From positions 620,001-684,000 of the forward strand of contig NZ_CP024996.1 in the NCBI RefSeq assembly GCF_003719195.1: 64,000 nt of DNA. Direction: 5' to 3'. Below the pieces are notes generated by a model. It saw only the letters and a program-made list of their open reading frames with translations. It had not been told where the DNA came from and did no database searches. Numbering within the stretch: the stretch's first letter is position 1; every line of letters begins with the position of its first letter. This stretch comes from Herbaspirillum rubrisubalbicans (lineage in GTDB: Bacteria; Pseudomonadota; Gammaproteobacteria; Burkholderiales; Burkholderiaceae_D). Below are positions 10,651 through 24,293 of this stretch, one piece after another. A program made the translations under genes and the position numbers.

Positions 10651-12219
10651 ATGAAGGGTTGGGCGGAAATGAGAATTGGCATGAAGTTGAGTCTGGGCTT
10701 TGCCAGCCTGTTGTTGATGACGCTGGCGCTGGTGGCGGTGGCGATCCTGGGGATCAATTCCCTGCGTAGCTCTATCGAGCGCGCCAATGATGTGCAAAAT
10801 GAAAAGCTGGAGCCGCTCTATGCGGCGCGCGAAGCCCTGGACCAGACCGGGATCGCGGCGCGCAATGCCTACGTGTTCCTGGAGGATGTCGACGCCCGGA
10901 AGGAATTGAAGATCGTCGACGAACAAAAGGCGATCTACTTGGCCGAGCTGCAGAAGTTGGAGCCCTTGCTGGCTGACAATCCCAATTTCAGCGCCGTGCG
11001 CGGCGGCCTGCTGCAGATGGCCGATGAGCTCCGGCTCCCGCGCCAATATCGCCAAAGCGGGGCGATGGAGGCCTATCGCGATTTCCTGGTCAATCGATGC
11101 AGCCCCTTGCGGCGCAAGATCGTCGAGGACATCAACCAGCTCATCGCCGAGATCGCCGGCCAGAGCAAGGCTGCCGGCGCTGCCAGCGAGAGTGCGGCCA
11201 AGGATGCCTTGCACCTGATTTCCTTGCTGGCCGTGGTGGTGACCCTGCTGGCGGTGACAGTGGCTTTTATCATCACTCGCGGCCTGCTGCGCCAGCTCGG
11301 CGGCGAGCCTGCCTATGCGATGGCCATCGCCCAGCAGATCGCGCATGGCGACCTGGCCGTGGAGGTGAGTATGCGCGCCGATGATCGCAGCAGCCTGCTG
11401 TACGCCATCAGGATGATGCGCGACAGCCTGGCGGCCATCGTCGGCCAGGTGCGGCAGGGGACCGATTCGATCGAGCGTGCTTCCACCGAGATCGCCAGCG
11501 GCAACGTCGACCTGTCGGCACGCACTGAACGCCAGGCCAGTTCTCTGGAGGAAACCGCCAGCGCCATGGAAGAGATTACCTCGGCGGTGCGCCACAATGC
11601 AGAGAATGCGGCCCAGGCCAGCGAACTGGCCGAATCGGCCTCGGTCATCGCGGTCAAGGGCGGTCAGTTGATGGGCGAGGTGGTGGCGACGATGGATGAT
11701 ATCAACCAGTCGTCCATCAAGGTGGTGGATATCATCAGCGTGATCGATGGCATCGCCTTCCAGACCAATATCCTGGCCCTGAACGCGGCAGTCGAAGCAG
11801 CACGGGCGGGCGAGGGCGGACGTGGCTTTGCTGTGGTGGCGAGCGAGGTGCGCACGCTGGCCCAGCGCAGCGCCGCCGCGGCCAAGGAGATCAAAGAATT
11901 GATCAGCGCTTCGGTGACCAAGGTCGAGGCCGGTAGCAGTCTGGTCAAGGGTGCAGGCGTGACCATGGAAGAGATCGTGGCCAGCGTGCGCAAGGTGACT
12001 GGCGTGATCGCCGACATCACCGTTTCCAGCCGTGAGCAGAGCGCGGGCATCGAGCAGGTCAATGACGCCATCACCCACATGGATGAAGCTACCCAGCAGA
12101 ATTCGGCACTGGTGGAACAGGCCGCTGCTGCTGCCCAGGCGCTGACTTCGCAGGCAGGGTCGCTGGCGCGCCTGGTATCCACCTTCAAGGTCGCGCCGAC
12201 GGCGGCCGTGCCGGGATAG
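10651..12219 (+). CDS. Methyl-accepting chemotaxis protein
   Basis: A 522-residue inner-membrane chemoreceptor. A first membrane segment (about 12-35, [20 protein letters not shown]), a periplasmic four-helix-type sensor (about 35-195), a second membrane segment (about 190-212), HAMP, and a cytoplasmic signalling domain follow in order. The hairpin tip [20 protein letters not shown] is conserved, with [14 protein letters not shown] after it. No C-terminal CheR/CheB pentapeptide is evident. The start at MKGWAEM follows GGGAAAG. The next gene begins 10 bases after its stop, so receptor and GAF-EAL protein may share a message. The ligand is unknown. Confidence 0.92.
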
Positions 12220-12229
12220 GGGGGCGCTG

Positions 12230-14020
12230 GTGCAGAGTTTGCAAACAGCAGAGTATCCGCTCACGGTGCCGTGTGAAGACGCCCGGCTGGCCGAGTTGCA
12301 GTCCTACTGTGTGCTCGATACCTTGCCCGACATGCTGTGCGACCAGGTCACGCAACTGGCCAGGTCGATGTTCGGGGTGGAGATCGCGCTGGTGTCCTTG
12401 ATCGATGAACATCGCCAGTGGTTCAAGTCGCGCATCGGACTGGAGGTGCGTGAGATGCCGCGTGCGGATTCCTTCTGCGCGCACGCCATCTACTCCAGCG
12501 GCAGCATGGTGGTGCTGGATGCCCGGCAAGATGAGCGTTTCGCCGACAACGTGCTGGTGACCGGTGCGCCATTCATTCGCTTCTACGCCGGCGTGCCGCT
12601 GGTCACGCCCCAGGGACAGCCGCTGGGAACGCTGTGCATCATCGATTCACAGGCGCGCAGTCATTTCAGCCAGGCCGAACAGGCGCAACTGGAGCAACTG
12701 GCGGCCATCGTCATGGAGCGCCTGGAGCAGTTACGCAACAGCGGCTACACCGATCATGTGACGGGTTTGCCCAATCGCGCCAGGCTCATGGAAGTGCTGC
12801 GTTCGCGTGCACAGGAGAGCGGCCCGGTGAGCCGCTCGTGTGCAGCGCTGGCGGTGGATATCTGTCCACGTGAATATTTGTTCGACATGGTCAAGGCACT
12901 CGGCTGGGATTATGCCGAGGCTTTTCTGGTCGAGGTCTGTCGCACGCTGCAGCGCGCATTGGGAACCACCCAGGTGTACCGGGTGGCGACCACCACCTTC
13001 GTCTACCTGGATGATGGTGATGCGCAGCAGCGCCAACAGCGGCAGGCGTCGCTGCAGCGTCATTTTGCCCATGCGCTGGAGATCCATGGCATTCCGCACC
13101 AGCTCGACATCGCCGTCGGCATACTGCCACAGGTCGATGAACTTGATGGCGGCGACGTGGTGCGTGCATTGCTGACGGTGATCGACGTGAGTCGCGAGGA
13201 AGGCGTCTCGCCGCGCATCTTCGAGCCGGCTCATGCAGAAAACCAGCGCTATGCCTTCTGGGTACTGTCGGCTTTGCCGGTGGCTTTCAACACACCGGGC
13301 GAACTGAGCCTGTATTACCAGCCCAAGGTCAGGTTACAGGATGGTGCCTGCATCGGGGTCGAAGCGCTGATCCGCTGGCAGCACCCCATCCTGGGCAATA
13401 TCTCGCCGGAGGTGTTCATCAGCCTGGCGGAAAAGACCGCCCAGATCCGCCAGATCACCACCTGGGTAGTCCGCCAGGCGGTGGAACAGGCAGCGCACTG
13501 GGCGCAGCGCGGACGCGCCACGCCGGTGGCTATCAATACCTCGGCCAGGGATTTCGAGGCGGATGACTTGCAGTGCCTGCTGGCGCAGTTGTTGATGCAG
13601 CACATGGTGCCGCCGGGATTGATCGAGATCGAATTTACCGAGAGCGCCATGGCCAGCAATCCCGAGGTGGTACGCCAGCGCGTGCAGGCCATCCGCGAAC
13701 TGGGGGTGAAGGTGGCCATCGATGATTTCGGTGCGGGTTTCAGCAATCTAAGCTACCTCAAGAGCATCCCGGCCGACGTCATGAAGATCGATCGTTCCTT
13801 CATTCGTGGCCTGGTCGATGACGAGGCCGACCAGGTGATCGTGCCGTCCATCATCCACCTGGCGCACCAGCTTGGCTTTGGCGTGGTGGCCGAAGGCGTG
13901 GAGTGTGAACGCACGGTGCGCCTGTTGCAACATCTCGGCTGCGATTATGCCCAGGGCTATGCCATCGCCCGGCCGATGCCGGCCGAGGAACTGGAAGAGT
14001 GGATGGGAATGTCCCGCTGA
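12230..14020 (+). CDS. GAF / degenerate GGDEF / EAL protein (probable c-di-GMP phosphodiesterase)
   Basis: A 596-residue soluble protein. A GAF domain (about 20-165) contains IRFYAGVPLVTPQGQPLGTL. The GGDEF-like domain (about 175-310) begins TDHVTGLPNRARL, but the signature position reads YRVATTTFVYL instead of GGDEF, so cyclase activity is unlikely. The EAL domain (about 330-590) keeps VEALIRW, a Glu in EIEFTES, DDFGAGFSNLSYL and VVAEGVE. It is therefore likely a phosphodiesterase or c-di-GMP sensor tuned by GAF. Start is GTG at 12230 with a preceding AGGGGGG. It lies just downstream of the chemoreceptor and is convergent with an HTH-GAF protein carrying a related GAF domain. Confidence 0.87.
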   Translation: MQSLQTAEYPLTVPCEDARLAELQSYCVLDTLPDMLCDQVTQLARSMFGVEIALVSLIDEHRQWFKSRIGLEVREMPRADSFCAHAIYSSGSMVVLDARQDERFADNVLVTGAPFIRFYAGVPLVTPQGQPLGTLCIIDSQARSHFSQAEQAQLEQLAAIVMERLEQLRNSGYTDHVTGLPNRARLMEVLRSRAQESGPVSRSCAALAVDICPREYLFDMVKALGWDYAEAFLVEVCRTLQRALGTTQVYRVATTTFVYLDDGDAQQRQQRQASLQRHFAHALEIHGIPHQLDIAVGILPQVDELDGGDVVRALLTVIDVSREEGVSPRIFEPAHAENQRYAFWVLSALPVAFNTPGELSLYYQPKVRLQDGACIGVEALIRWQHPILGNISPEVFISLAEKTAQIRQITTWVVRQAVEQAAHWAQRGRATPVAINTSARDFEADDLQCLLAQLLMQHMVPPGLIEIEFTESAMASNPEVVRQRVQAIRELGVKVAIDDFGAGFSNLSYLKSIPADVMKIDRSFIRGLVDDEADQVIVPSIIHLAHQLGFGVVAEGVECERTVRLLQHLGCDYAQGYAIARPMPAEELEEWMGMSR

Positions 14021-14033
14021 GCAGCAGCGCGTC

Positions 14034-14786
14034 TTACTGATGCCGCGTTTCGAGGATTTGCAGCGAGAGAATGTCGGTGGCCATGACCGCCAGTTCTTCC
14101 AGCGCCTGCCGCTCATGCGCACGCAGGATGCGCGGTTCGGTATCGATCACGCACAGCGAGCCAAAGGCCTTGCCCTGGTGCATCAGGCGGATGCCGGCGT
14201 AGAAGCGGATGTAGGGATCCGAGGTGACCATGGGATTGTTGACGAAGCGCGCATCCCGGGTGGCATCGGGGACGGTGAAGATATCTTCCTGCATGACGGC
14301 GTAATTGCAGAAGGCCCAGGAGCGCGGCGTGGAACTGATGTTCAAGCCGTGTGCAGCGCGGAAGATCTGTAGTTCCGAGGTCAGGAAGGTGACCAGGGCG
14401 ATGGGCACGTCCAGCAATTCGCTGGCGAGCCATGTCAGGCGTTGAAAGCGGGCCTCGCAATGTACGTCTTCCATGATCTGTTCAACAAAGCGCGCACGTT
14501 CAGGCTCGTTCTGGCTGACCGGATAAGGAACCTCGATCGGTGGCGCAGACGGACCGGCGGTGGGCTCGGGTTGTTTCACTTCGCGGTGGCCGAGCAAGGT
14601 CATGACCGAACTCAACCGGGTACGCCGGTGACCGCCTGGTGTCTTCCAGGAGGCCAGCATTCCGCTTTCCATCCACATCTGGGCGGTCGTGATCGAAACA
14701 CCCAGCATCTTGGCGGCTTCCCGTGAGGTCATCGCAGGGTCGCTGGGCGGCATGTCGTTGTCATCAGATGGTACTGCGCGTCCCAT
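14034..14786 (-). CDS. HTH (excisionase/MerR-like) - GAF fusion protein
   Basis: A 250-residue protein. Residues about 18-65 (MTSREAAKMLGVSITTAQMW, then ESGMLASWKTPGGHRR) form a winged-helix module of the excisionase/BldC kind. Residues about 95-245 form a GAF domain with DPYIRFYAGIRL and AFGSLCVIDTEPR, close in type to the GAF of the convergent EAL protein. It is probably a small-molecule or redox-responsive DNA-binding protein. I cannot name the ligand. The ATG at 14786 follows AAGGATC. Its promoter lies in a strikingly AT-rich stretch. Confidence 0.75.
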   Translation of the reverse strand: MGRAVPSDDNDMPPSDPAMTSREAAKMLGVSITTAQMWMESGMLASWKTPGGHRRTRLSSVMTLLGHREVKQPEPTAGPSAPPIEVPYPVSQNEPERARFVEQIMEDVHCEARFQRLTWLASELLDVPIALVTFLTSELQIFRAAHGLNISSTPRSWAFCNYAVMQEDIFTVPDATRDARFVNNPMVTSDPYIRFYAGIRLMHQGKAFGSLCVIDTEPRILRAHERQALEELAVMATDILSLQILETRHQ

Positions 14787-15174
14787 TTGATTGATCCTTG
14801 TAAAAGTATAACTGTGCTAGATAAAATTTGAATATTTCGCATATTTAATATTTTATGGATGGCAGAAATACAACAAAAGAAAAATACTTTAATATTTTTC
14901 ACTTCTAGTTAGCGCTGCCATAAGCAAAAATGCGAAATAAACAAATTTCCATACTGTAGAGGCAAGAACTTACGTGTTCCTTGTGGCGGACTTTTTCCTA
15001 TGGGGCAGGAATTTTTATTGACCCACGGAGTTTTTATGATGTTCGTGCCAATGGGGCATTGTAGTGCTCAATGCAAAATGATGTCGGACAAGTCCCCTCG
15101 TTCTGCCCCGAAGCTGACTTGGGTCAAGCCCTGCAGGCCGGTTTGTGTAGACACGAGGAAACACAGAGGGAGCC
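14787..15174. other. AT-rich intergenic region
   Basis: Of these 388 bases, about 14800-14960 is far richer in A and T than the surroundings, with many AATATT and TTTAAT runs. Such sequence is typical of foreign or silenced DNA, or of a strong upstream promoter region. A short open frame at 15000-15191 has no convincing ribosome site or protein character, and I do not call it a gene. Confidence 0.6.
14805..14832 (-). promoter_or_regulatory. Possible sigma-70 promoter of the HTH-GAF gene
   Basis: On the minus strand TTCAAA (14832-14827) and TATACT (14810-14805) are separated by 16 bases and lie about 20-45 bases before the ATG. The -10 is good and the -35 is moderate (4 of 6). Confidence 0.4.
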
Positions 15175-15384
15175 ATGAGTCAGCAAGATGAGGTCGGCAT
15201 GGATTCCCATCGGATGAAAATCTGCATCGGCGGGACGACTTACGTCATCGAGAGCCGGGCGCTGGACCTGTCGGAGGGGGAGCGGTTTTATGAATACCGT
15301 GTCTGGTGTGAGGACCAGGTAGTGAAGGATTGGACGCAGGGCAACATGGCTGATTTTTTCGCGCCCGGTCTGCGGCAAGGATAG
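15175..15384 (+). CDS. Small hypothetical protein
   Basis: A 69-residue protein starting MSQQDEVGMDSHRMKICIGG with GAGGGAG 4-5 bases before the ATG. No family is recognised. The sequence alternates strands and charges (TTYVIESRALDLSEGERFYE), suggesting a small folded beta-rich protein. Two hairpins follow, the second with a T-run, so the unit appears monocistronic. It sits at the left edge of the accessory island. Confidence 0.55.
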   Translation: MSQQDEVGMDSHRMKICIGGTTYVIESRALDLSEGERFYEYRVWCEDQVVKDWTQGNMADFFAPGLRQG

Positions 15385-15459
15385 ATAGGAAGGTCATGGC
15401 GGCGGGCGTATGCCGCGCCGCAAAGCTGTCCCGCCTCCTCATCCCCCCGAGGAGGCGTT

Positions 15460-15493
15460 AAGCCCTGCTCCGTGAGGAGTGGGGCTTTTTTTA
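15460..15493 (+). terminator. Rho-independent terminator after the small hypothetical gene
   Basis: Arms 15460-15471 and 15476-15487 pair (AAGCCC and CTCC blocks with a two-base mismatch) and are followed by seven T. Just before it a perfect 9-bp hairpin without T-run occupies 15432-15457 (CGCCTCCTC / GAGGAGGCG). Confidence 0.7.
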
Positions 15494-15576
15494 TCCTGCG
15501 CAAAGACCAAAGCCACCGTGCGGGTGGCTTTCTAAGGTCCGCCTAGATACGTTCGCTCCGGGTCTCTACGATGCGG
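15488..15576. repeat. Direct repeat, left copy, flanking the Septu locus
   Basis: This block recurs on the far side of ptuAB in two pieces. Its first half (TATCCTGCGCAAAGACCAAA onward, ending in GGCTTT) matches 18149-18192 with two differences. Its second half (CTAAGGTCCGCCTAGATACG onward, ending in GATGCGG) matches 18291-18335 with two differences. In this copy the halves are adjacent, whereas in the right copy 98 bases separate them. A hairpin AAGCCACC / GGTGGCTT lies inside the first half. It could be an attachment-site duplication, a recombination scar or ends of a non-autonomous element. Confidence 0.7.
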
Positions 15577-15765
15577 TCCATGCACAACATGACAACGTTG
15601 AATCAAGCCGATAAACTCATGCCGACTATTGCGGATGGGGATAGCGTTGAAGGCCCCGCACTATGTGCCCAATCCGTTCCCCAGGGCAGCCGATTTCGGG
15701 GTGGCCAGTGTTAACTACGAATTGAGTGACTTGCTTTTGCGAGCGATTACTCTGGAGCAATCTGT

Positions 15766-17169
15766 ATGCGTCTAGATAGGTTACGTCTCAAAAACTTCCG
15801 CTGTTTCGGCGATTTTGAGCTCTTGTTCAATACCTCTTCACGGCTGACTGTGCTAGTTGCTGAAAATGGGCAGGGAAAGTCGACTGTGCTGGATGCAATC
15901 CGCATTGGTGTTTGGCCCTTTATCAAGAGTTTTGATCTGGCCAAGTCATCTACTTTTAATGACCCATCCAACAGCATTTCTGTTGATGATGCGCGACTGA
16001 TCCAAGGCCATACCAGCGGAACCATGGTCCGTCTGTTACCGGTTGAGGTCGAGCTGACGGGGGACTGGGGAACTGATACTGCCAAGACGTGGCGTCGCTT
16101 TCGTGAAAAGGAAGATCGGAAGACGAAGACGCTTGACGATGACAACACCAAACTCATGAAGCAGTGGGCTGAGGCGGTCCAGAAGCAGGTGCAAAGCGAG
16201 AGCCCAAACCAGCGTGATTTGCCCGTCTTCGGTTATTACGGCACTGGTCGTCTGTGGGCCCAAAAGCACCTGCGAGACGCAGACAAGCTTAGTAAAGCTG
16301 AAGAGGCAGATCTGCCGATTCGTACCTTCGGCTACCGCAACTGCATGGATCCAGCTTCATCCTATAAGCATTTCCGCGAATGGTTTATCTGGGCCTGGGA
16401 AAGCCGCAGCAATATGCGCGAGCGTCAGCATGTGACCGATGAGGAGCGAAGCAACGCGGATCATCGCATCAAGGTTATTCAGGAGGTCGTGGATATCTTC
16501 CTGAAGGAAACTAGCGGATGGCATACCTTGGAATACAGCGTGGAGGATCAGAAGTCCATCATTCTGTACCACGACGCACATGGACGGATGAAAGTGGATG
16601 ACCTCAGTGATGGCATTCGCAGCATGTTGGCGATGGTGGGAGATGTTGCCTATCGTTGTATCAAACTCAATCCACATTTGGGCGGGCTTGCTGCAAAGGA
16701 AACCTATGGTGTTGTCCTCATTGACGAAGTGGACATGCACCTTCATCCACGCTGGCAGCAACTGGTGCTTGGACAGCTACAGAAGGCGTTCCCAAAAATC
16801 CAGTTCATCGTCACAACACATAGTCCGCAGGTGCTTAGCACAGTGAGGCAGGAGTGTATTCGCGTCATCGGTATCGATCCTACCGGCAACTTGATTGCTG
16901 AACCGCCGTTGGCACGAACTTACGGTGAACCAAGCGGCACAGTAATGTATGCCGTGATGCAGGTTGATCCACAGCCTCCTGTGAGCGAAAAGCCCCAGTT
17001 ACAACGTCTGACCGAACTGGTCGATCAAGGTCAGTATGAAAGTGACGACGCAGTTCGTCTACTTGACGAACTCTTAGCTTTGCTAGGTGAGACACACCCT
17101 CAACTTCAGCGCATACAACGCAGCATTGCTCGCCAAAAAACACTAGGACCAAAGGTACTGAAAGGATGA
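15766..17169 (+). CDS. ptuA: Septu system ATPase PtuA
   Basis: A 467-residue ABC/SMC-like ATPase of the AAA_15/OLD group, soluble. Walker A is AENGQGKST (residues 32-40) after the typical N-terminal RLKNFRCFGDFEL. A signature-like LSDGIRSML starts at 280, Walker B is VVLIDEVDMHLHPRW (316-330), and the switch His is in VTTHSPQVLS (about 349-358). The C-terminal tail is helical. Paired with an HNH-type gene overlapping by ATGA, it matches the two-gene Septu anti-phage system, in which PtuA and PtuB form a complex that cleaves nucleic acid on infection. A GGAG site precedes the ATG. Base composition is more AT-rich than its neighbours, fitting acquisition by transfer. Naming is from motif and pairing, not from a search. 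Confidence 0.82.
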   Translation: MRLDRLRLKNFRCFGDFELLFNTSSRLTVLVAENGQGKSTVLDAIRIGVWPFIKSFDLAKSSTFNDPSNSISVDDARLIQGHTSGTMVRLLPVEVELTGDWGTDTAKTWRRFREKEDRKTKTLDDDNTKLMKQWAEAVQKQVQSESPNQRDLPVFGYYGTGRLWAQKHLRDADKLSKAEEADLPIRTFGYRNCMDPASSYKHFREWFIWAWESRSNMRERQHVTDEERSNADHRIKVIQEVVDIFLKETSGWHTLEYSVEDQKSIILYHDAHGRMKVDDLSDGIRSMLAMVGDVAYRCIKLNPHLGGLAAKETYGVVLIDEVDMHLHPRWQQLVLGQLQKAFPKIQFIVTTHSPQVLSTVRQECIRVIGIDPTGNLIAEPPLARTYGEPSGTVMYAVMQVDPQPPVSEKPQLQRLTELVDQGQYESDDAVRLLDELLALLGETHPQLQRIQRSIARQKTLGPKVLKG

Positions 17170-17891
17170 GGTCAATTCAAAAGATTGGCGGTGGCGGCTA
17201 TCACTTGGCGCAGGCTCATGCCAACCCGCCGCAAACGCATACCCAGGCAACCACCAGATGGACTAGCTTTGGCCACAAAGCTGCGGTGAGGCAATCTCTA
17301 CAGCATGAGCAATACCAGCTTTGTTGCTACAGCGAGATCCGCGCCGATCAATTGGGGCATGGCTACCATATTGAGCATGTGGAGAACAAAAGCCAAAATC
17401 CGGTACGAACCTTTGACTATACAAACCTCGCAGCCAGCGCTTTGGATAGTGCCAATGATCTTGGTCGGTTCAAGCAGCTAGGCAGGGCCACCTTTGGCGG
17501 CCACGCTCCTGGCAAGCAGGCTTCATGCGATATGGCACGCTTTGTTACGTGCCATCAACCGGACTGTGCTCGCTTTTTTGCTTACCTGTCGGATGGTCGT
17601 GTTGTGCCGGCCAATAATTTAACGGCCGCAGATCGAGACCGCGCTCAATACACGATTGATCTACTCAATCTTAATAGTCCGTACCTCATCACGCTACGCC
17701 AGAGCTGGTGGGAGGAGTTGGACAAGCTGTATGCCCAACACCAACAGCAAGGCTGGAGCCTGTCGCATCTGGTTGCGATCGATCTCGTTCCGCACCAGCA
17801 CGCACTCAGTCCTTTTTTCAGCATGACGCGACAGTTTTTTGGCCCAGTGGCCGAAACTGTCTTGCAGCAACAAGCGCCATCATTGCTATGA
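17166..17891 (+). CDS. ptuB: Septu system HNH nuclease PtuB
   Basis: A 241-residue HNH-type endonuclease of the TIGR02646/PtuB family. The core is visible as CCYSEIRAD (53-61), GYHIEHVENKS (66-76) and FDYTNLAAS (83-91), followed by a second Cys/His group (FVTCHQPDCARFF) and a family-typical TIDLLNLNSPYL near residue 160. The ATG overlaps the TGA of ptuA, so the two are translationally coupled and probably made in fixed ratio. It is the likely effector nuclease; PtuA would regulate it with ATP. A nest of inverted repeats begins about 55 bases after the stop. Confidence 0.82.
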   Translation: MRSIQKIGGGGYHLAQAHANPPQTHTQATTRWTSFGHKAAVRQSLQHEQYQLCCYSEIRADQLGHGYHIEHVENKSQNPVRTFDYTNLAASALDSANDLGRFKQLGRATFGGHAPGKQASCDMARFVTCHQPDCARFFAYLSDGRVVPANNLTAADRDRAQYTIDLLNLNSPYLITLRQSWWEELDKLYAQHQQQGWSLSHLVAIDLVPHQHALSPFFSMTRQFFGPVAETVLQQQAPSLL

Positions 17892-17947
17892 CTCATCCAA
17901 CCAAGATTCCCAAAAGCTGATCGAAACCACCAGAACTCATTTCATCA

Positions 17948-18149
17948 ATAGGCGTGAGATGCGTTCTGCCCAGAAAGGGCGCTGGCAAGGCGCGCAACGC
18001 GGCCAGCGCCCTTTCTGAGCATAACCCGAAGGGAGCGGCCCGTTTGGGCGAATTGCTGCGTTACGAATTTGGGTCAAGACGCCCAGTCTTGACCCAAATT
18101 CGCGCCTTGCACTTCATCCCAAACGGGACTCGCTCGCACTCACGCCTAT
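17948..18149. repeat. Nested inverted-repeat (cloverleaf-like) element downstream of ptuB
   Basis: Four inverted repeats are nested in 202 bases. The outer pair is ATAGGCGTGAG (17948-17958) and CTCACGCCTAT (18139-18149). Inside is a perfect 16-bp stem (17971-17986 with 18002-18017, CAGAAAGGGCGCTGGC). A second branch has a 10-bp stem CCCGTTTGGG (18039-18048 with 18118-18127) enclosing a perfect 17-bp stem (18064-18080 with 18086-18102, CGAATTTGGGTCAAGAC). The first loop also holds GCAAGGCGCG (17985/6-17995), fully complementary to CGCGCCTTGC at 18101-18110, allowing an alternative or pseudoknot pairing. There is no T-run, so this is not a simple terminator. The right end abuts the direct repeat. 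Confidence 0.8.
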
Positions 18150-18335
18150 TTTTATCCTGCGCAAAGACCAAAGCCACCGTGTGGGCGGCTTTCATGGAGT
18201 GTGTCAATGTAGCGTATTGAGCTTGGTACAGTTACGCAATTGTAGTTTTTCTCAGAACGATTTCTTTACAGATCGCCCCACCTCACCCAACTAAGGTCCG
18301 CCTAGATACGCTCGCTCCGGGTCTCTTCGATGCGG
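18149..18335. repeat. Direct repeat, right copy, split by 98 bases
   Basis: The pieces at 18149-18192 and 18291-18335 match the left copy at 15488-15576 with about two differences each. The 98 bases between them are absent from the left copy. Together the two copies bracket ptuAB and the inverted-repeat element, a unit of about 2.8 kb. Confidence 0.7.
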
Positions 18336-18494
18336 CAACAGGCCTTAAGACGCGCTCCAGTTAGAAGCGTCAAGCTAGTATTTAACTGGCAAATTGTGAA
18401 TGGACCAGGCCCGACTCCGGCCAACCATCTTTCCACCTCGCTGCCCTTACTGGAGCCCTGCTCCAGTAATTGTCAAATTCGCCAAAAGTTGAAT

Positions 18495-18689
18495 CTATTC
18501 AAAAGCTGCTAAGGGTCTTGTTGCCTGAAATTGCTCGACAAACCCCAGCCCCCCCTTCCGAATAAATTCGAAATTCACCAGGTTTTCCTTGTTGTTCCAT
18601 CCCTCCCTTGCGGAGCCCACAGCATTTTCTGATGCGGTCGAAATATCATCCAGCGACCACGAGTCCCCCCCCTTGCGATGCTTGCCCAC
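18495..18689 (-). pseudogene. Possible gene fragment, protein-like, unknown
   Basis: A 64-codon minus-strand frame with a GTG and no clear ribosome site. The part SWSLDDISTASENAVGSARE, then GWNNKENLVNFEFIRKGG, looks like real protein sequence and not random translation, but I do not recognise a family. G-homopolymer runs in the DNA on both sides suggest frameshifts. It may be the tail of a lost gene from the accessory island. Weak call. Confidence 0.3.
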
Positions 18690-18791
18690 TCAATATTCAC
18701 GACGGGCATCGCCCGGTTCTTTAACGAGGCTCGTCGAAGCGTTCATGCAGAGCATTTGGAAATACTTGATTAATTCATTCGTGGAGTAGCG

Positions 18792-20012
18792 ATGGCGGAT
18801 ATCAAAAAAGTTTCGTATTACCACCTAAAGAAAGGTCTGTTCGGATGGGAGTTGAAAGAGTTCAAGGCAGCTCAAGGATGCATTCCCTTGGACACGCAAA
18901 AAAGTGTCTCGTTTGATAGGCCAGCACCCGGCGAAAAACCATCGCCCCCCAAGCCAACTATGGAGGTGCCAAAGGCTCAGAGGCAAACTGAAGCGCCGCA
19001 AGCTAGAAAAAATCCCAAAGCGAATCAACCAAAGGCCAAAGAGACTCCTAAACAACTGGAAGCAGAGGTTTGCGAGAATCCGCCTAATTTCGATCTTCAG
19101 GATGTGCCAGTTGCAATGGCTAATCTGGGCTGGACGGTCTCGGCCAAACTGGCTCTAAGGTGGTTCACCGGTTCTGCCCACGTCTATGACAACAATCCCA
19201 CGTCGGTCCAGCCGATTAATGATACCGACGTGACTCTTGATTGGGCGCTGAAGTTTGGGGGCGTCAGGAAAAAATATGAAAAGCTTTTGGCCAAGGATGT
19301 CTACAATGATGTCGCCGTTGATTTCGCAAAAAAGAAAATTCTGAACAGAATAAAAAAACGATTTTCCGAGGAGCGGACAACCAATCTTAGCTTCAACACA
19401 TCAGAGTCCTTATCAGATCTTCTGCAATTTCATGTTGATTGGCAGTTTCAGCTCGTATCAATACGTGATGGAGACACCTTTGATGGTCTGACTTTGACCG
19501 ATCTCACTGGGTCGTTGGCAAACTTCAACATCTATATCGCGGTGGGCAATGTCGAGATATCCGGCGAGAAATATTTTAGATACGAAAAATCAAAGAACTT
19601 TTACTGTGTCGACGCCATCGGGAAAATTACACATGTCTACGCCTATGTGAAAGACAACTATTCATTCAACGGAGAACAGTATTTGGGGCATTGGAATAAG
19701 CATGGAATTATTATTGCGCCGGGTACCTGGTTGACGGGATCTGGACAACGAAAGAGCGATTCAGATATCGACATATGGGTAAAGGCCATCAACAAGCCGG
19801 TAGACACTCGCAAGAGTTTCTTTGGCAAATTTAGAGAGCCAGACGTTTACTTCCCGGTGTTTAACGCTGACTACAATCGATGGCGAGAAAAGCATCAACG
19901 AGGGGAAGACTTCATGGTCTATTCAAAGCCTGTTTACCTCAAACTCAAAAAACCTATCACCTTCAAACTTGGTGAAATATGCAGATTAGAGCCATTAAAT
20001 TCATTGGCATAG
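18792..20012 (+). CDS. DUF6402-like protein, possible secretion-associated effector
   Basis: A 406-residue protein. The N-terminal 30 residues are followed by a Pro/Lys-rich disordered linker (about 40-90). A folded domain starts near 97 with FDLQDVPVAMANLGWTVSAK, then DVTLDWALKFGGVRKKYEKL. I associate this with DUF6402, a family found near type VI secretion and PAAR genes in Burkholderiales. That link is from memory and unverified. There is no signal peptide. Codon use is AT-rich compared with neighbours. GGAG lies 9 bases before the ATG. The next gene overlaps its 3' end by 34 bases, an arrangement common for effector-immunity pairs, but toxicity is not demonstrated by anything in the sequence. 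Confidence 0.6.
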   Translation: MADIKKVSYYHLKKGLFGWELKEFKAAQGCIPLDTQKSVSFDRPAPGEKPSPPKPTMEVPKAQRQTEAPQARKNPKANQPKAKETPKQLEAEVCENPPNFDLQDVPVAMANLGWTVSAKLALRWFTGSAHVYDNNPTSVQPINDTDVTLDWALKFGGVRKKYEKLLAKDVYNDVAVDFAKKKILNRIKKRFSEERTTNLSFNTSESLSDLLQFHVDWQFQLVSIRDGDTFDGLTLTDLTGSLANFNIYIAVGNVEISGEKYFRYEKSKNFYCVDAIGKITHVYAYVKDNYSFNGEQYLGHWNKHGIIIAPGTWLTGSGQRKSDSDIDIWVKAINKPVDTRKSFFGKFREPDVYFPVFNADYNRWREKHQRGEDFMVYSKPVYLKLKKPITFKLGEICRLEPLNSLA

Positions 20013-20383
20013 CTTTTGTGGTTGCTATGGCAGTTGGTCTTTTCACTTACTTTAATCAACCCACCTATGGACGCTGCGAATCTTTCACGAAGGATCTGAG
20101 GGGAGGCAAGAAAGATTTTCATGGCGCAGTGTATGAGGTCAAGCTGTGTGGTGCGGATATTACCAACGGCACCAAGATCAGGCTTCAGGTTTTTGATCGT
20201 TCCGGCGATCTCGTAGCCCAGCGCTATTTTTCTTACTACCTGAATTCGGCGACCGAGCGAGACCTGGCTGAAGGCACGGATTCCATCATCTACTTCGATA
20301 GCGCAAGAGAAAGTCCCATGCAGTCGATATCGATGCCGCCGACCAAATGGGATTGGATCAGTGCAAGGTTGCCCTTGTTTTGA
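19979..20383 (+). CDS. Small membrane-anchored/periplasmic protein, possible immunity partner
   Basis: A 134-residue protein with an N-terminal hydrophobic anchor or signal (IKFIGIAFVVAMAVGLFTYF, residues about 6-25) and a soluble remainder with two Cys (YGRCESF, VKLCGAD) that could form a disulfide outside the cytoplasm. The family is not recognised. It overlaps the preceding gene by 34 bases in another frame, with GGTGA before its ATG. Position and topology would suit an immunity or accessory protein for the DUF6402-like product; this is inference only. Confidence 0.55.
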   Translation: MQIRAIKFIGIAFVVAMAVGLFTYFNQPTYGRCESFTKDLRGGKKDFHGAVYEVKLCGADITNGTKIRLQVFDRSGDLVAQRYFSYYLNSATERDLAEGTDSIIYFDSARESPMQSISMPPTKWDWISARLPLF

Positions 20384-20389
20384 GTCTGT

Positions 20390-20416
20390 GGATGTACCGT
20401 CGCGGACGGTACATCC
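20390..20416. terminator. Perfect 12-bp hairpin between convergent genes
   Basis: GGATGTACCGTC (20390-20401) and GACGGTACATCC (20405-20416) are perfect complements around a 3-base loop, between the end of the small membrane protein gene (+) and the end of the ammonium transporter (-). No T-run on either side, so termination is only probable. Confidence 0.45.
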
Positions 20417-20453
20417 ATCAGTTAGTCGGCGCAAGGAATCAACCCGCGAGAAC

Positions 20454-21656
20454 TTACCAACTGGTCTCCCTCTCCGCCGTCGAAGAAATCTTGTGAATGG
20501 CCAGGTCAGCCCCTTCGAATTCCTGCTCAGGATCGAGACGGATGCCGACCGCCTTCTTGAGCAAGCCATACACGATCCATCCCCCCAGCGCCGCAATGGC
20601 GATGCCCATGAGGCTGCCGATCAACTGCGCCATGAAGGACACGCCACCGCGCCCCCCCAGCGCCTGCAGGCCGAAGATGCCGGCCGCCAGGCCGCCCCAC
20701 AGGCCGCACAGGCCGTGCAGCGGCCACACGCCCAGCACGTCGTCGATCTTCCATTTGTTCTGGGTACGCGTGAACATCCAGACGAAGATGGCGCCGGCGA
20801 TGCCGCCTGTGATCAGTGCGCCCAGCGGGTGCATCAGGTCCGAGCCTGCGCACACGGCCACCAGGCCGGCCAGCGGGCCGTTGTAGGCGAAGCCGGGATC
20901 GTTGCGGCCCATCAGCAGCGCTACCAGGGTGCCGCCGGCCATGGCCATGAGCGAATTCATCGCCACCAGCCCGTTCATCTTCTCCAGCGTCTGCGCGCTC
21001 ATGACGTTGAAGCCGAACCAACCCACCGTGAGGATCCACGCGCCCAGCGCCAGGAAGGGGATGTTGGAGGGCGGGTGCGCCGCCACAGCGCCTTCCTTGC
21101 TGTAGCGGCCACGGCGCGCGCCCAGCAGCAGTACCGCCGGCAACGCGATCCAGCCGCCCACGGCATGGACCACGATGGAACCGGCGAAGTCATGGAATTG
21201 GGCGCCGAAGCGGGCTGCTAGCCAGGCCTGCACACCCAGGTGCTGGTTCCAGGCGATACCCTCGAAGAAGGGATACACCAGACCGACCAGCACGGCTGTT
21301 GCCACCAGTTGAGGATTGAACTTGGAACGCTCGGCAATGCCGCCCGAGATGATGGCCGGGATGGCCGCCGCAAAGGTCAGCAGGAAGAAGAACTTGACCA
21401 GTTCGAAGCCGCTTTTCTGGGCCAGTGTCTCGGCGCCGGCAAAGAAGCTCACGCCATAGGCCACGTAATAGCCGATGAAGAAATAGACGATGGTCGAGAC
21501 CGCAAAGTCGGCCAGGATCTTGACCAGGGCATTGACCTGGTTTTTCTTGCGCACCGTGCCCAGTTCAAGGAAGGCGAAGCCGGCGTGCATGGCCAGGATC
21601 ATGATCGCCCCCAGCAGGATGAAGAGGGCGTCTGCGCCGTTTTTGTGATCGTCCAC
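20454..21656 (-). CDS. amtB: Ammonium transporter (Amt family)
   Basis: About 400 residues with 11 hydrophobic segments, forming a trimeric inner-membrane channel for ammonium/ammonia. Twin pore histidines are visible in IVVHAVGGWIALPA and in WPLHGLCGLWGG, and the family motif DFAGSIVVHAVGG is intact. I choose GTG at 21656 because GGAG lies 8 bases upstream. A TTG five codons earlier has no ribosome site. No glnK gene is adjacent. A canonical sigma-54 promoter and NtrC-like sites upstream point to induction by nitrogen limitation. Confidence 0.9.
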   Translation of the reverse strand: MDDHKNGADALFILLGAIMILAMHAGFAFLELGTVRKKNQVNALVKILADFAVSTIVYFFIGYYVAYGVSFFAGAETLAQKSGFELVKFFFLLTFAAAIPAIISGGIAERSKFNPQLVATAVLVGLVYPFFEGIAWNQHLGVQAWLAARFGAQFHDFAGSIVVHAVGGWIALPAVLLLGARRGRYSKEGAVAAHPPSNIPFLALGAWILTVGWFGFNVMSAQTLEKMNGLVAMNSLMAMAGGTLVALLMGRNDPGFAYNGPLAGLVAVCAGSDLMHPLGALITGGIAGAIFVWMFTRTQNKWKIDDVLGVWPLHGLCGLWGGLAAGIFGLQALGGRGGVSFMAQLIGSLMGIAIAALGGWIVYGLLKKAVGIRLDPEQEFEGADLAIHKISSTAERETSW

Positions 21657-21707
21657 CAGAAAATCTCCCAAAAATTGTGCAATGAAAGAATGGAAAGCCT
21701 GGATTCA

Positions 21708-21723
21708 AGCAATTTCCGTTCCA
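21708..21723 (-). promoter_or_regulatory. Sigma-54 (RpoN) promoter of the ammonium transporter
   Basis: On the minus strand TGGAACGGAAATTGCT matches TGGCACG-N4-TTGCW with one change, with GG and GC exactly 10 bases apart. It would place the transcript start about 40 bases before the GTG. Confidence 0.75.
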
Positions 21724-21758
21724 TTTTGGTGATTTTTCGGCAGTGGTTTGATTTTTAA

Positions 21759-21813
21759 GGACTTTTTCGGTGCGCATCCATTCTGGATATGAAGTTTTGC
21801 ACGAATTTCGTGC
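21759..21813 (-). promoter_or_regulatory. Two NtrC-like enhancer sites
   Basis: GCAC-N7-GTGC at 21799-21813 is a perfect 7-bp-arm palindrome (GCACGAATTTCGTGC) with NtrC spacing. A second, weaker site GGAC-N7-GTGC lies at 21759-21773, 40 bases away. Both are about 60-115 bases upstream of the predicted sigma-54 start, in the usual enhancer range. Confidence 0.6.
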
Positions 21814-21936
21814 GATCGCGCCGAGACCCCCGCATTGAAGCTGTATTTTGGTGCGCGTTGTCAGCTAGCCCTTGGTGGTCCCGAAATTTTGTGAAAATCG
21901 CATCATTTTGCATTTTCCAGACCCTCAGGTCAGCCT

Positions 21937-21965
21937 TGGTCATCCTGCTTTCATGGAACGGTCAT
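21937..21965 (+). promoter_or_regulatory. Three-unit Pho-box-like direct repeat upstream of phoD
   Basis: TGGTCAT (21937), CTTTCAT (21948) and CGGTCAT (21959) repeat with an exact 11-base period. Each matches CTGTCAT in 5-6 of 7 positions, as expected for PhoB binding. They end 56 bases before the phoD ATG. Confidence 0.65.
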
Positions 21966-22021
21966 ACTGGATCGCTACATTGCAACTCCCCCTCTGTTTC
22001 CTCACCCTCACAGGAGTTGCC

Positions 22022-23647
22022 ATGCCCGACCAGAATTCGCCAGCCGACCACAGCCGTCGCCGTTTCCTGCGCGACAGTGCCGCCACCGCCGTGGGCAGTG
22101 CGGCCGTGATCGCCAGCCCCGCCTCCTTGGCGGTGGCGCCGGCCATCGTCACTTCCGAACGCCTGCGTCCGCAGTTGCCCAGCGGCATCATGAGCGGCGA
22201 CGTCACCCGCGATAGCGCCATGGTCTGGGCGCGTAGTGATCGCACGGCGCGCATCCTGGTCGAGTATTCCACCAGCGAGCATTTCGCCAATCCCATCCGT
22301 ATCGCCGGCCCCACCGCGCTGGCCCGTGACGACTACAGTGCCCGCGTGGATCTGCGCGGCCTGCCGGCTGGCCAGCGTGTCTACTACCGTGTGCGCTTCC
22401 AGGACCTGGTGCATGAGTCGGCCTTGAGCGAACCGCTGACCGGCAGCCTCATGGTGCCGGCCGCGATTCAGCACGGCCAGGTGCGCGACATCACCTTTGC
22501 CTTCTCGGGCGATGAAGCCGGCCAGGGATGGGGCATCAACGAGCAGTGGGGCGGTTATCGGGTATATGAATCAATGCGCCGTTTCCGTCCAGATTTCTTC
22601 ATCCACTCGGGCGACCAGATCTATGCCGATGGCCCGATCCAGGCCGAAGTGAAGCTGGACGACGGCAGCCTGTGGCGCAACGTGGTCACCGAAGCCAAGT
22701 CCAAGGTGGCGCAGACGCTGGACGACTATCGCGGCAACTTCGCCTACAACATGCTGGACGCCAACAAGCGCCGCTTCGCCGCCGAGGTGCCGTTCCTGGT
22801 GCAATGGGACGATCACGAGGTGCGCAACAACTGGTATCCCACCCAGGTGATCGGTCCCCAGGAAAAACGCTACGACGAACGCAACATCGACGTGCTGGCC
22901 GCGCGTGCGCGCCAGGCCATGTTCGAGCACAACCCGTTCCGCATCGATAGCGCCGATCCGTTCCGCATCTATCGTGCCTTCAACCATGGGCCGCTGCTGG
23001 AAGTGTTCATGCTGGACGAACGCAGTTATCGCGGCAGGAACTCGCCCAATCGCCAAAAGGGGGGACATGATGCCGACTTCCTCGGTCCCGAGCAGATGCG
23101 CTGGATCAAGCAAGCCCTGCTGCGCTCGCGCTCGACCTGGAAGCTGATCGCCAGCGATATGCCGCTGTCCATCGTGGTGCCGGACCTGAACCCGGACGTG
23201 CCCAAAGGCACTTTCGAAGCCTGGGCCAATGCCGACAATGGCAAACCTTCCGGGCGCGAGCTGGAAGTGGCCGAGCTGCTGCGCTTCATCAAGCAGCACG
23301 ACATCAAGAACGTGGTCTGGGTGACGGCCGACGTGCACTACGCCTCGGCCACGCATTACTCGCCCGAACGCGCCCAGTTCACCGACTTCAAGCCCTTCTG
23401 GGAATTCGTCGGCGGGCCGATCAATGCGGGCACCTTCGGTCCCGGCGAGATCGACCGTACCTTTGGCCCGGACGTGCGTTTCGTCAGCATCCCGGCCGAC
23501 ATGAAGCAGAATCGCTCACCGGCCGACCTGTTGCAGTTCTTCGGTATTGGCAAGATTGATGCGAAGAGCAAGACGCTCACCGTCACGCTGCACAACACCG
23601 GCGGTAAGGAAATCTACAAGGTCGAACTGCCGCCCGAGCAGGCTTGA
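22022..23647 (+). CDS. phoD: PhoD-type alkaline phosphatase/phosphodiesterase
   Basis: A 541-residue secreted metallophosphoesterase. The twin-arginine signal SRRRFLRDSAATAVGSAA spans residues about 13-30. A PhoD N-terminal domain (SGDVTRDSAMVWARSD) follows, then metal-site motifs FFIHSGDQIYADGP, VQWDDHEVRNNW and VTADVHYASATHY. It hydrolyses phosphomono- or diesters outside the cytoplasm with Fe/Ca cofactors in characterised homologues. AGGAGTTGCC precedes the ATG; the upstream extension of the frame would put residues before the Tat signal and is rejected. Upstream PhoB-type repeats suggest induction in phosphate starvation. Confidence 0.9.
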   Translation: MPDQNSPADHSRRRFLRDSAATAVGSAAVIASPASLAVAPAIVTSERLRPQLPSGIMSGDVTRDSAMVWARSDRTARILVEYSTSEHFANPIRIAGPTALARDDYSARVDLRGLPAGQRVYYRVRFQDLVHESALSEPLTGSLMVPAAIQHGQVRDITFAFSGDEAGQGWGINEQWGGYRVYESMRRFRPDFFIHSGDQIYADGPIQAEVKLDDGSLWRNVVTEAKSKVAQTLDDYRGNFAYNMLDANKRRFAAEVPFLVQWDDHEVRNNWYPTQVIGPQEKRYDERNIDVLAARARQAMFEHNPFRIDSADPFRIYRAFNHGPLLEVFMLDERSYRGRNSPNRQKGGHDADFLGPEQMRWIKQALLRSRSTWKLIASDMPLSIVVPDLNPDVPKGTFEAWANADNGKPSGRELEVAELLRFIKQHDIKNVVWVTADVHYASATHYSPERAQFTDFKPFWEFVGGPINAGTFGPGEIDRTFGPDVRFVSIPADMKQNRSPADLLQFFGIGKIDAKSKTLTVTLHNTGGKEIYKVELPPEQA

Positions 23648-23669
23648 TTGAGGCCGGGGCGGCGCTGCA

Positions 23670-24293
23670 TCAGAAGCCACTGTCGGTGCTGAAGCTGCCG
23701 CCGCCCATACCACCACCCATACCACCACCCCCGCCGCCCATGCCGCCGGCACCGCTCCCCATGCCACGCCCCATGCCACCACGACTACCACTGGTCCCAC
23801 CGGAGCGGGCGTGTCCTTGCTCGTCTTGAGCAGGACCATCGGCCACGCGCTGCATGCGGTCCAGAATGTAATCCTGGACCTGCTTGCGCTGACCGTCATC
23901 GAGTGCATCGGCCATCTCAAACCAGATTTCACGCAACTGGTGCGCTTCCTCTTCGGCGGCGTGAGCATCGGCGTCATAGTCGGCGGCCAGCTCACGGAAG
24001 TCGCCGCCTGGTTTGTGCAAGACCTGATCCGTATGCGCTTGCAGGCTGGCACGCCGCTGTTGGCGTTGGGCCAGGATGGCGCGGGTCTTTTGCTCCGTCT
24101 GGCGCCATAGGATCTGCTGGTTGGGGTTGAGGTTGAGGTCACTCTTGAGCGGTTCGGTCATGGGCAGGATGTCGCTGGCGATCAGATCGACCAGTGGCGT
24201 GGCCATGGCCGGCAGCGCCGTGGCCAACATCAGGGCCGATGCCGCAGCACACAGCAGTGACTTGGGAAAGGAGGGCAGAGCAAAGCCGGGCAT
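23670..24293 (-). CDS. Periplasmic Spy/LTXXQ-like protein with Gly/Met-rich tail
   Basis: A 207-residue protein with a signal peptide (SLLCAAASALMLATALPAMA, residues about 12-31). A helical domain follows (LNLNPNQQILWRQTEQKTRA), resembling the Spy/CpxP/heavy-metal-sensor group. The last 45 residues are almost only Gly, Met and Ser (GGMGGGGGGMGGGMGGG). It could bind unfolded proteins or metal in the periplasm; neither is proved. The start at MPGFALP has GGAG 9 bases upstream. It is convergent with phoD, 22 bases apart. Confidence 0.65.
   Translation of the reverse strand: MPGFALPSFPKSLLCAAASALMLATALPAMATPLVDLIASDILPMTEPLKSDLNLNPNQQILWRQTEQKTRAILAQRQQRRASLQAHTDQVLHKPGGDFRELAADYDADAHAAEEEAHQLREIWFEMADALDDGQRKQVQDYILDRMQRVADGPAQDEQGHARSGGTSGSRGGMGRGMGSGAGGMGGGGGGMGGGMGGGSFSTDSGF

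Follow-up and report, generated by a model that had tools for sequence, protein, structure and literature searches.

A stand-alone type I Septu pair of Herbaspirillum rubrisubalbicans and the joint evolution of PtuA tail and PtuB among its relatives

A two-gene locus at 15766 to 17891 of the window (the whole stretch of 64,000 nucleotides analysed, positions 620,001 to 684,000 of contig NZ_CP024996.1 of Herbaspirillum rubrisubalbicans) raises the question of whether it is a Septu system in its own right or what is left of a related one, and what its nuclease would cut. The pair is a complete stand-alone type I Septu, one more ordinary locus of a known kind. In related loci PtuB and the tail of PtuA form a single evolutionary unit, largely apart from the ATPase core. 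The locus matters as an entry to the DNA-versus-tRNA question for PtuAB, for which the available portions of PMC11555353 and PMC13096335 give no rule.

Identity of the gene pair

The genes and their motifs, with the evidence for each, are as follows.

15766..17169, + strand: ptuA, an SMC/RecF-like ABC ATPase of 467 aa (ORF list)
15868..15885, + strand: Walker A GQGKST with K38 (G-x-[GA]-K-[ST] in 78/78 PtuAs)
16711..16728, + strand: Walker B VVLIDE with D320/E321 (both invariant in 35/35 aligned PtuAs)
16819..16821, + strand: switch (H-loop) histidine H352 (invariant in 35/35 aligned PtuAs)
16837..17166, + strand: putatively exchangeable PtuA tail, residues 358-467, the candidate PtuB-docking part (change points, PtuB covariation, structure ranges)
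17166..17169, + strand: ATGA shared by the stop of ptuA and the start of ptuB (ORF coordinates)
17166..17891, + strand: ptuB, an HNH nuclease of 241 aa (PDLC00357, TIGR02646, 8ee7, 8eea_G)
17322..17336, + strand: CCYSE motif of PtuB, residues 53-57, Ser replacing the second Cys (motif scan)
17367..17378, + strand: HIEH of the HNH site, residues 68-71 (H68 and H71, both invariant, 30/30)
17424..17426, + strand: N87 of the HNH site, within DYTNL (invariant, 30/30)

The preliminary description read the locus as a Septu PtuA-PtuB pair from an ATPase with intact Walker A, Walker B and switch histidine whose gene overlaps, by ATGA, that of a small protein with CCYSE, HIEH and DYTNL. Each of these elements was located, and the PtuA, PtuB and TIGR02646 models it had named all match: PADLOC PDLC00310 (PtuA) at 558 bits (E 4.5e-168) over residues 1-459, PDLC00357 (PtuB) at 418 bits (E 2.4e-126) and TIGR02646 at 91.6 bits, above its cut-off of 52.15. 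The nearest structures are those of E. coli Septu; 8ee4 matches PtuA at 399 bits, 8ee7 matches PtuB at 283 bits (the Ec78 retron PtuB, 36 bits), and comparison with 8eea_G (TM 0.93, 56% identity) bears out the proposed HNH-nuclease fold. The window locus resembles E. coli Septu (8ee4, 8ee7, 8eea, 8sux) in having two genes, full-length matches and the same class of tail and PtuB, but the whole PtuA is at most 45% identical (39-45% over full length).

The catalytic elements are widely kept among the relatives described below. The strict Walker B pattern matched in 49/78 PtuAs by motif scan, and T-[TSA]-H-S-[PA] around the switch histidine in 76/78. All 35 PtuBs of the window's class carry C-x-Y-[S/T]-E, in which Ser or Thr replaces the second Cys of C-x-Y-C, whereas those of the other classes have C-x-[Y/F]-C (43/43, with E next in 42).

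Other ATPase families fit less well. The OLD structure 6p74 reached 45 bits against 399 for 8ee4, the RecF model TIGR00611 scored 37 bits for a cut-off of 172, and no Gabija name stood among the best 25 of 150 PADLOC families. A better match to an OLD or Gabija family, which the preliminary description had named as a refutation, thus did not appear in these comparisons. PARIS (AriA) was not a better fold match than PtuA.

The locus combines a PtuA ATPase, an adjoining PtuB HNH gene and intact Walker A/B and HNH residues with the absence of a reverse transcriptase, as expected of type I Septu; the presence of that enzyme is reported to mark type II (PMC8565338). Neither the window ORFs nor the genome hold a reverse transcriptase gene before ptuA, as in retron type I-A/Septu type II, and no PF00078 match was found in the genome at E ≤ 0.001, in line with the earlier account of a unit lacking this enzyme. 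The retron Ec78 equivalogs are not reached either (PtuA, NF041760, 270 of 500 bits; PtuB, NF041761, 82 of 150 bits).

That account had also seen no other recognisable defence gene, which is roughly true. For 49 other window ORFs (at least 120 aa, chosen by length and a codon-GC rule with no gene caller), PADLOC gave mad3 (2 members, best E 2.6e-33), mad8 (1 member, best E 4.1e-16) and no further family at E ≤ 1e-10. The source of these matches was not among the 20 of the 49 ORFs scanned singly or three more, and no MADS system was seen in the window despite them.

Genomic setting and occurrence

The pair lies within a stretch of atypical composition, with repeats on either side.

15493..20451, no strand: low-GC island, bounded by a terminator and by amtB, with ptuAB, the repeats and the DUF6402 pair
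15485..15576, no strand: left direct repeat in two adjoining parts of 48 and 45 nt (not found in the rest of the genome)
17940..18145, no strand: palindromic dispersed repeat behind ptuB, 206 bp (fold z -12.7)
18146..18335, no strand: right copies of the same direct repeat, 97 nt apart, at 18146-18193 (94%) and 18291-18335 (96%)

Island GC is 0.50 against 0.61-0.62 in the flanks. In two congeners (L085, L086) similarity stops at 15492, directly behind the terminator, and returns at amtB (20452/20456), and the 96-bp flanking repeat had no match in 25/25 congeners at E ≤ 0.001. The direct repeats around ptuAB may be a mark of how the cassette came in. The palindromic repeat has 5 more near-full-length copies in the genome, 82-99% identical. 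The island also carries, at 18792-20383, a DUF6402 protein (406 aa) with an overlapping 134-aa protein, and a second DUF6402 gene lies outside the window (G000:C1:598494). In a further congener, L088, whose genome (G019) lacks PtuB, the DUF6402 pair stands inverted near the same amtB gene; this pair is thus an independent passenger.

PtuB was found in none of 40 other genomes (24 congeners and 16 from the order), so that the host genome is the sole carrier of 41. PtuA at E ≤ 1e-60 occurs in 8/294 family genomes and, within the genus, in the host genome only. On mobile elements PtuB was found in 1 of 50,697 phage records and PtuA in 105 of 72,556 plasmid records, with none of these plasmid PtuAs reaching 60% identity.

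PtuA tail and PtuB among relatives

The 80 best PtuA relatives of 255 found were collected with the next ORF behind each ptuA. Three loci were dropped (L018, next ORF not PtuB; L025, PtuA running off the contig; L061, no downstream ORF found), and the remaining 77 plus the window gave 78 PtuA-PtuB pairs. PtuA was cut behind the switch histidine and core, tail and PtuB were compared separately. Because single linkage joined all tails into one family, the classes were drawn by average linkage, with 2 to 12 classes tried.

At the chosen cut-offs, four tail classes coincide with four PtuB classes in 78/78 pairs (35, 26, 15 and 2), and core clusters agree with PtuB class at an adjusted Rand index of 0.06. 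Tail-PtuB agreement depends on class number (-0.04 at 2, 0.41 at 3, 0.73-1.00 at 4-12); core-PtuB agreement never exceeds 0.20 for 2-12 classes. The Mantel correlation is 0.736 for tail and PtuB (0/500 permutations as high), 0.126 for core and PtuB (0/500) and 0.090 for core and tail (5/500). A weak core signal therefore exists, and the core-PtuB association is not random. Within the three larger classes the correlation is 0.76-0.81 for tail and PtuB and 0.15-0.25 for core and PtuB.

Individual pairs are discordant in both directions. L062 and L017 are 81% identical in the core, 28% in the tail and 23% in PtuB; for L033 and L020 the figures are 42%, 80% and 76%. For L012 and L007 identity is 78% in the core and 21% in the tail, the change falling 6 columns behind the switch histidine; across the six discordant pairs analysed, a single change point fits best 6-17 columns after that residue. 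PtuB class requires 19 changes on the tree of 78 cores (minimum 3, shuffled mean 35.4) and 3 on the tail tree. The core tree was built quickly and has five long terminal branches; on it the AU test rejects a single clade for the window's PtuB class (p 3e-7), and the rows nearest to the window by path (L005, L020, L009, L006, L004) span three PtuB classes.

Since the loci had been chosen by total score, under which a tail-less row needs a better core, a contrast in mean identity between PtuB classes was set aside as proof, and the core-only sample and the separate comparison of core and tail took its place. Selection by whole-protein score can make core and tail seem to trade off against each other, hence the sampling control by core alone. 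A search with PtuA residues 1-360 gave 6544 matches, of which the best 120 were taken; P0001 (nearest the window, 99%) and P0040 (a fragment) were dropped, leaving 118 plus the window. Each tail was given the class of the labelled tail that it matched best, and this sample holds all four classes (38, 32, 28 and 21). Tail class changes 47 times on the core tree of the 119 (minimum 3, shuffled mean 64.3), or 46 times without two rows whose class margin is below 20 bits. The 38-row class clusters no more than in shuffles (90/500 as low), the window's class is weakly clustered (21/500) and the other two are clustered (0/500). By core identity, the share of pairs with unlike tail classes is 0.71-0.80 in the bins between 50 and 85%, 0.48 (56 pairs) at 85-90%, 0.35 (23 pairs) at 90-95% and 0.19 (26 pairs) at 95% or above. 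In an indirect check outside the 78, five PtuBs listed for the L062 PtuB were linked to PtuAs of the core-only search by equal length of the longest contig, and these apparent partner PtuAs had a matching tail class in 5/5 cases.

The window itself has such a counterpart. Its PtuA and that of Herbaspirillum huttiense (P0002; 95% core identity in the core-only search) share 96% of residues as far as position 357 but 29% from there on. Residues 357-467 of the window protein match 8ee4 at 100.6 bits and retron PtuAs at 28 bits or less (9n69, 28.0), while the P0002 tail scores 62 bits with 9n69 (retron I-A), 38-41 with Ec78 and 28.5 with 8ee4. No PtuB labelled Herbaspirillum, and so no partner for P0002, appeared among the 120 listed of 767 matches, most of the matches being unlabelled. 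In P0003 and P0005 both core and tail are kept at 83-90% relative to the window.

The window's PtuB falls in the class of Septu 8ee7. The PtuB of L006 is closest to retron Ec78 (137 bits; 8ee7, 29.7) and that of L005 to retron Ec83 (110 bits; no match to 8ee7 at 0.01). The Ec83-like class comprises L005 and 14 more loci (L009, L012, L014, L016, L019 and others). Retron Ec83 PtuA-PtuB (9e8z, 9e90) shares the fold family of the window pair, but its PtuB class is that of L005, whose core (66%) is closer to the window's than that of any other of the loci. Scores with PDLC00310 are similar for the window, P0002, L006, L005 and L062 (517-603 bits), and typing by PtuA would therefore not predict the effector if tail and PtuB are swapped together.

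Solved structures point to what the tail may do. Alignments of structure models to the chains, with ranges taken as listed for one chain per entry rather than from coordinates, reach residue 460-467 where PtuB is present (8eea_C, 9e90_A, 9n69_A, 9n6b_A). They end at 406 (8ee4_F) and 383 (8sux_F) for PtuA alone, at 383 for the Ec83 PtuA dimer (9e91_A) and at 381 for a retron without HNH nuclease (9n6c_D). The tail is thus resolved further with PtuB in three solved systems, although map quality could be the cause of unresolved tails. In the Septu complex, chains C/D have 445/456 resolved residues and A/B 375/372, a difference that would follow if PtuB sits on some of the subunits but not on all. 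By this comparison the tail would be the dock of PtuB in the window's PtuA.

We infer from the sequence comparisons that tail and PtuB form one exchangeable effector cassette, which would have been swapped repeatedly between similar ATPases. Exchange of the PtuA tail with PtuB was not found in the literature on Septu, PtuA and PtuB as represented by titles and abstract openings, with the structural work partly covered. A broader proposal, which we favour at somewhat better than even odds, is that throughout the Septu/retron I-A group the cassette recombines almost freely with trigger-providing ATPase heads, at a junction closely following the switch histidine; Septu and retrons would share one cassette pool, the cassette setting the target (phage DNA, single-stranded DNA or tRNA) and the head the trigger. 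If so, the window and H. huttiense P0002 would amount to a near-isogenic pair made by nature, one head with two cassettes. Naturally occurring PtuAs whose heads are 95-99% identical but whose tails differ would allow a direct test of the cassette rule, and if the cassette is the swapped unit, the DNA-or-tRNA rule is probably the cassette.

Mechanism, target and competing explanations

We propose that a small acquired island here carries a complete type I Septu, with an oligomeric PtuA, a tail that holds PtuB and infection licensing PtuB to cut nucleic acid; we put the probability of this reading at roughly 0.87. By analogy with the solved systems, the SMC-head-like ATPase PtuA would form a higher oligomer whose C-terminal tails (residue 358 on) would hold the HNH nuclease. 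On phage infection PtuA would change in nucleotide state or in assembly, which would license PtuB, and cutting of nucleic acid would stop the phage or the infected cell. The window pair would accordingly be expected to function in defence. Its target may, as a guess, be phage DNA, because the tail and PtuB cassette are in the class of the E. coli Septu 8ee7/8eea, which we take to be that of strain ATCC25922. The ATCC25922 Septu is described, at second hand, as acting on nicked phage DNA (PMC11555353), a 6:2 PtuA-PtuB complex is reported to degrade phage DNA and retron Ec83 to degrade ssDNA after release (both PMC12948488).

The same system could instead cleave a host tRNA (tRNA-Tyr) with abortive infection as the outcome, a reading that we consider rather unlikely. 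Its precedents are retron-Eco7 (Ec78), whose PtuAB is reported to deplete tRNA-Tyr (PMC11555353), and Septu Ec B88, which reportedly cleaves tRNA-Tyr in the variable loop (PMC13096335); the window's cassette, however, lies outside the Ec78/Eco7 class. Septu Ec B88 is likewise a two-gene ptuA-ptuB system, in which the Walker and HNH motifs are reported to be essential, their mutants being dead. By its published residue numbers it has the same 16-residue H-to-N spacing in PtuB (H75/N91; window, H71/N87), and its K-to-D spacing in PtuA is 273 (K43/D316) against 282 (K38/D320) in the window, so that core lengths would differ (PMC13096335). That the pair is the effector of a retron which lost its reverse transcriptase and msr-msd seems the least probable of the alternatives. 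Type I-A retrons do contain PtuAB pairs (PMC8565338), the preliminary description had pointed to such effectors with retron Ec78, and the cassette classes of the relatives include those of retrons Ec78 and Ec83. Yet the genome has no RVT_1, ncRNA searches of 12000-24000 gave no Rfam match at gathering thresholds, both Ec78 equivalogs stay under their cut-offs, the nearest solved pair is a stand-alone Septu, and the 467-aa PtuA has no counterpart of the N-terminal extension found in retron PtuAs of 542-552 aa, whose aligned chain ranges begin at 45-64. The window's PtuB also belongs to a different subclass from that of Ec78/Eco7.

An island in decay with a silent pair is improbable; the flanking direct repeats and dispersed palindrome suggest a mobile history and promoter-like signal at 15300-18800 is not above chance (2 sites, 1.9 expected), but both frames and all catalytic motifs are intact, and P0003 and P0005 keep core and tail. 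It is very improbable that the tail pattern reflects fast tail divergence or chimeric contigs instead of exchange. Many relatives do come from metagenomes, and the junction lies behind the very conserved THSPQVL, where assemblers could switch. Fast divergence, however, cannot give the reverse discordance of L033 and L020, the window genome is a single contig, P0002 stands on a 751 kb contig, and L012 and L007 are both from named strains.

The proposed Septu relatives show one further arrangement. A helicase ORF precedes ptuA in 17/52 loci checked (L006:2453-6004, L007:2294-6004, L021:2414-6004 and 14 more), and RVT_1 is not among the 25 listed of 78 Pfam families for the 52 upstream genes. These helicase ORFs are at least 58% identical to that of L006, and the NOV_C domain occurs in 16/52 upstream genes. 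Helicase and ptuA overlap by 4 nt in 11/17 loci, with PtuBs of one class behind 11 of the helicases and of another behind 6. A three-gene helicase-PtuA-PtuB operon is possible, perhaps near PADLOC's Hma.
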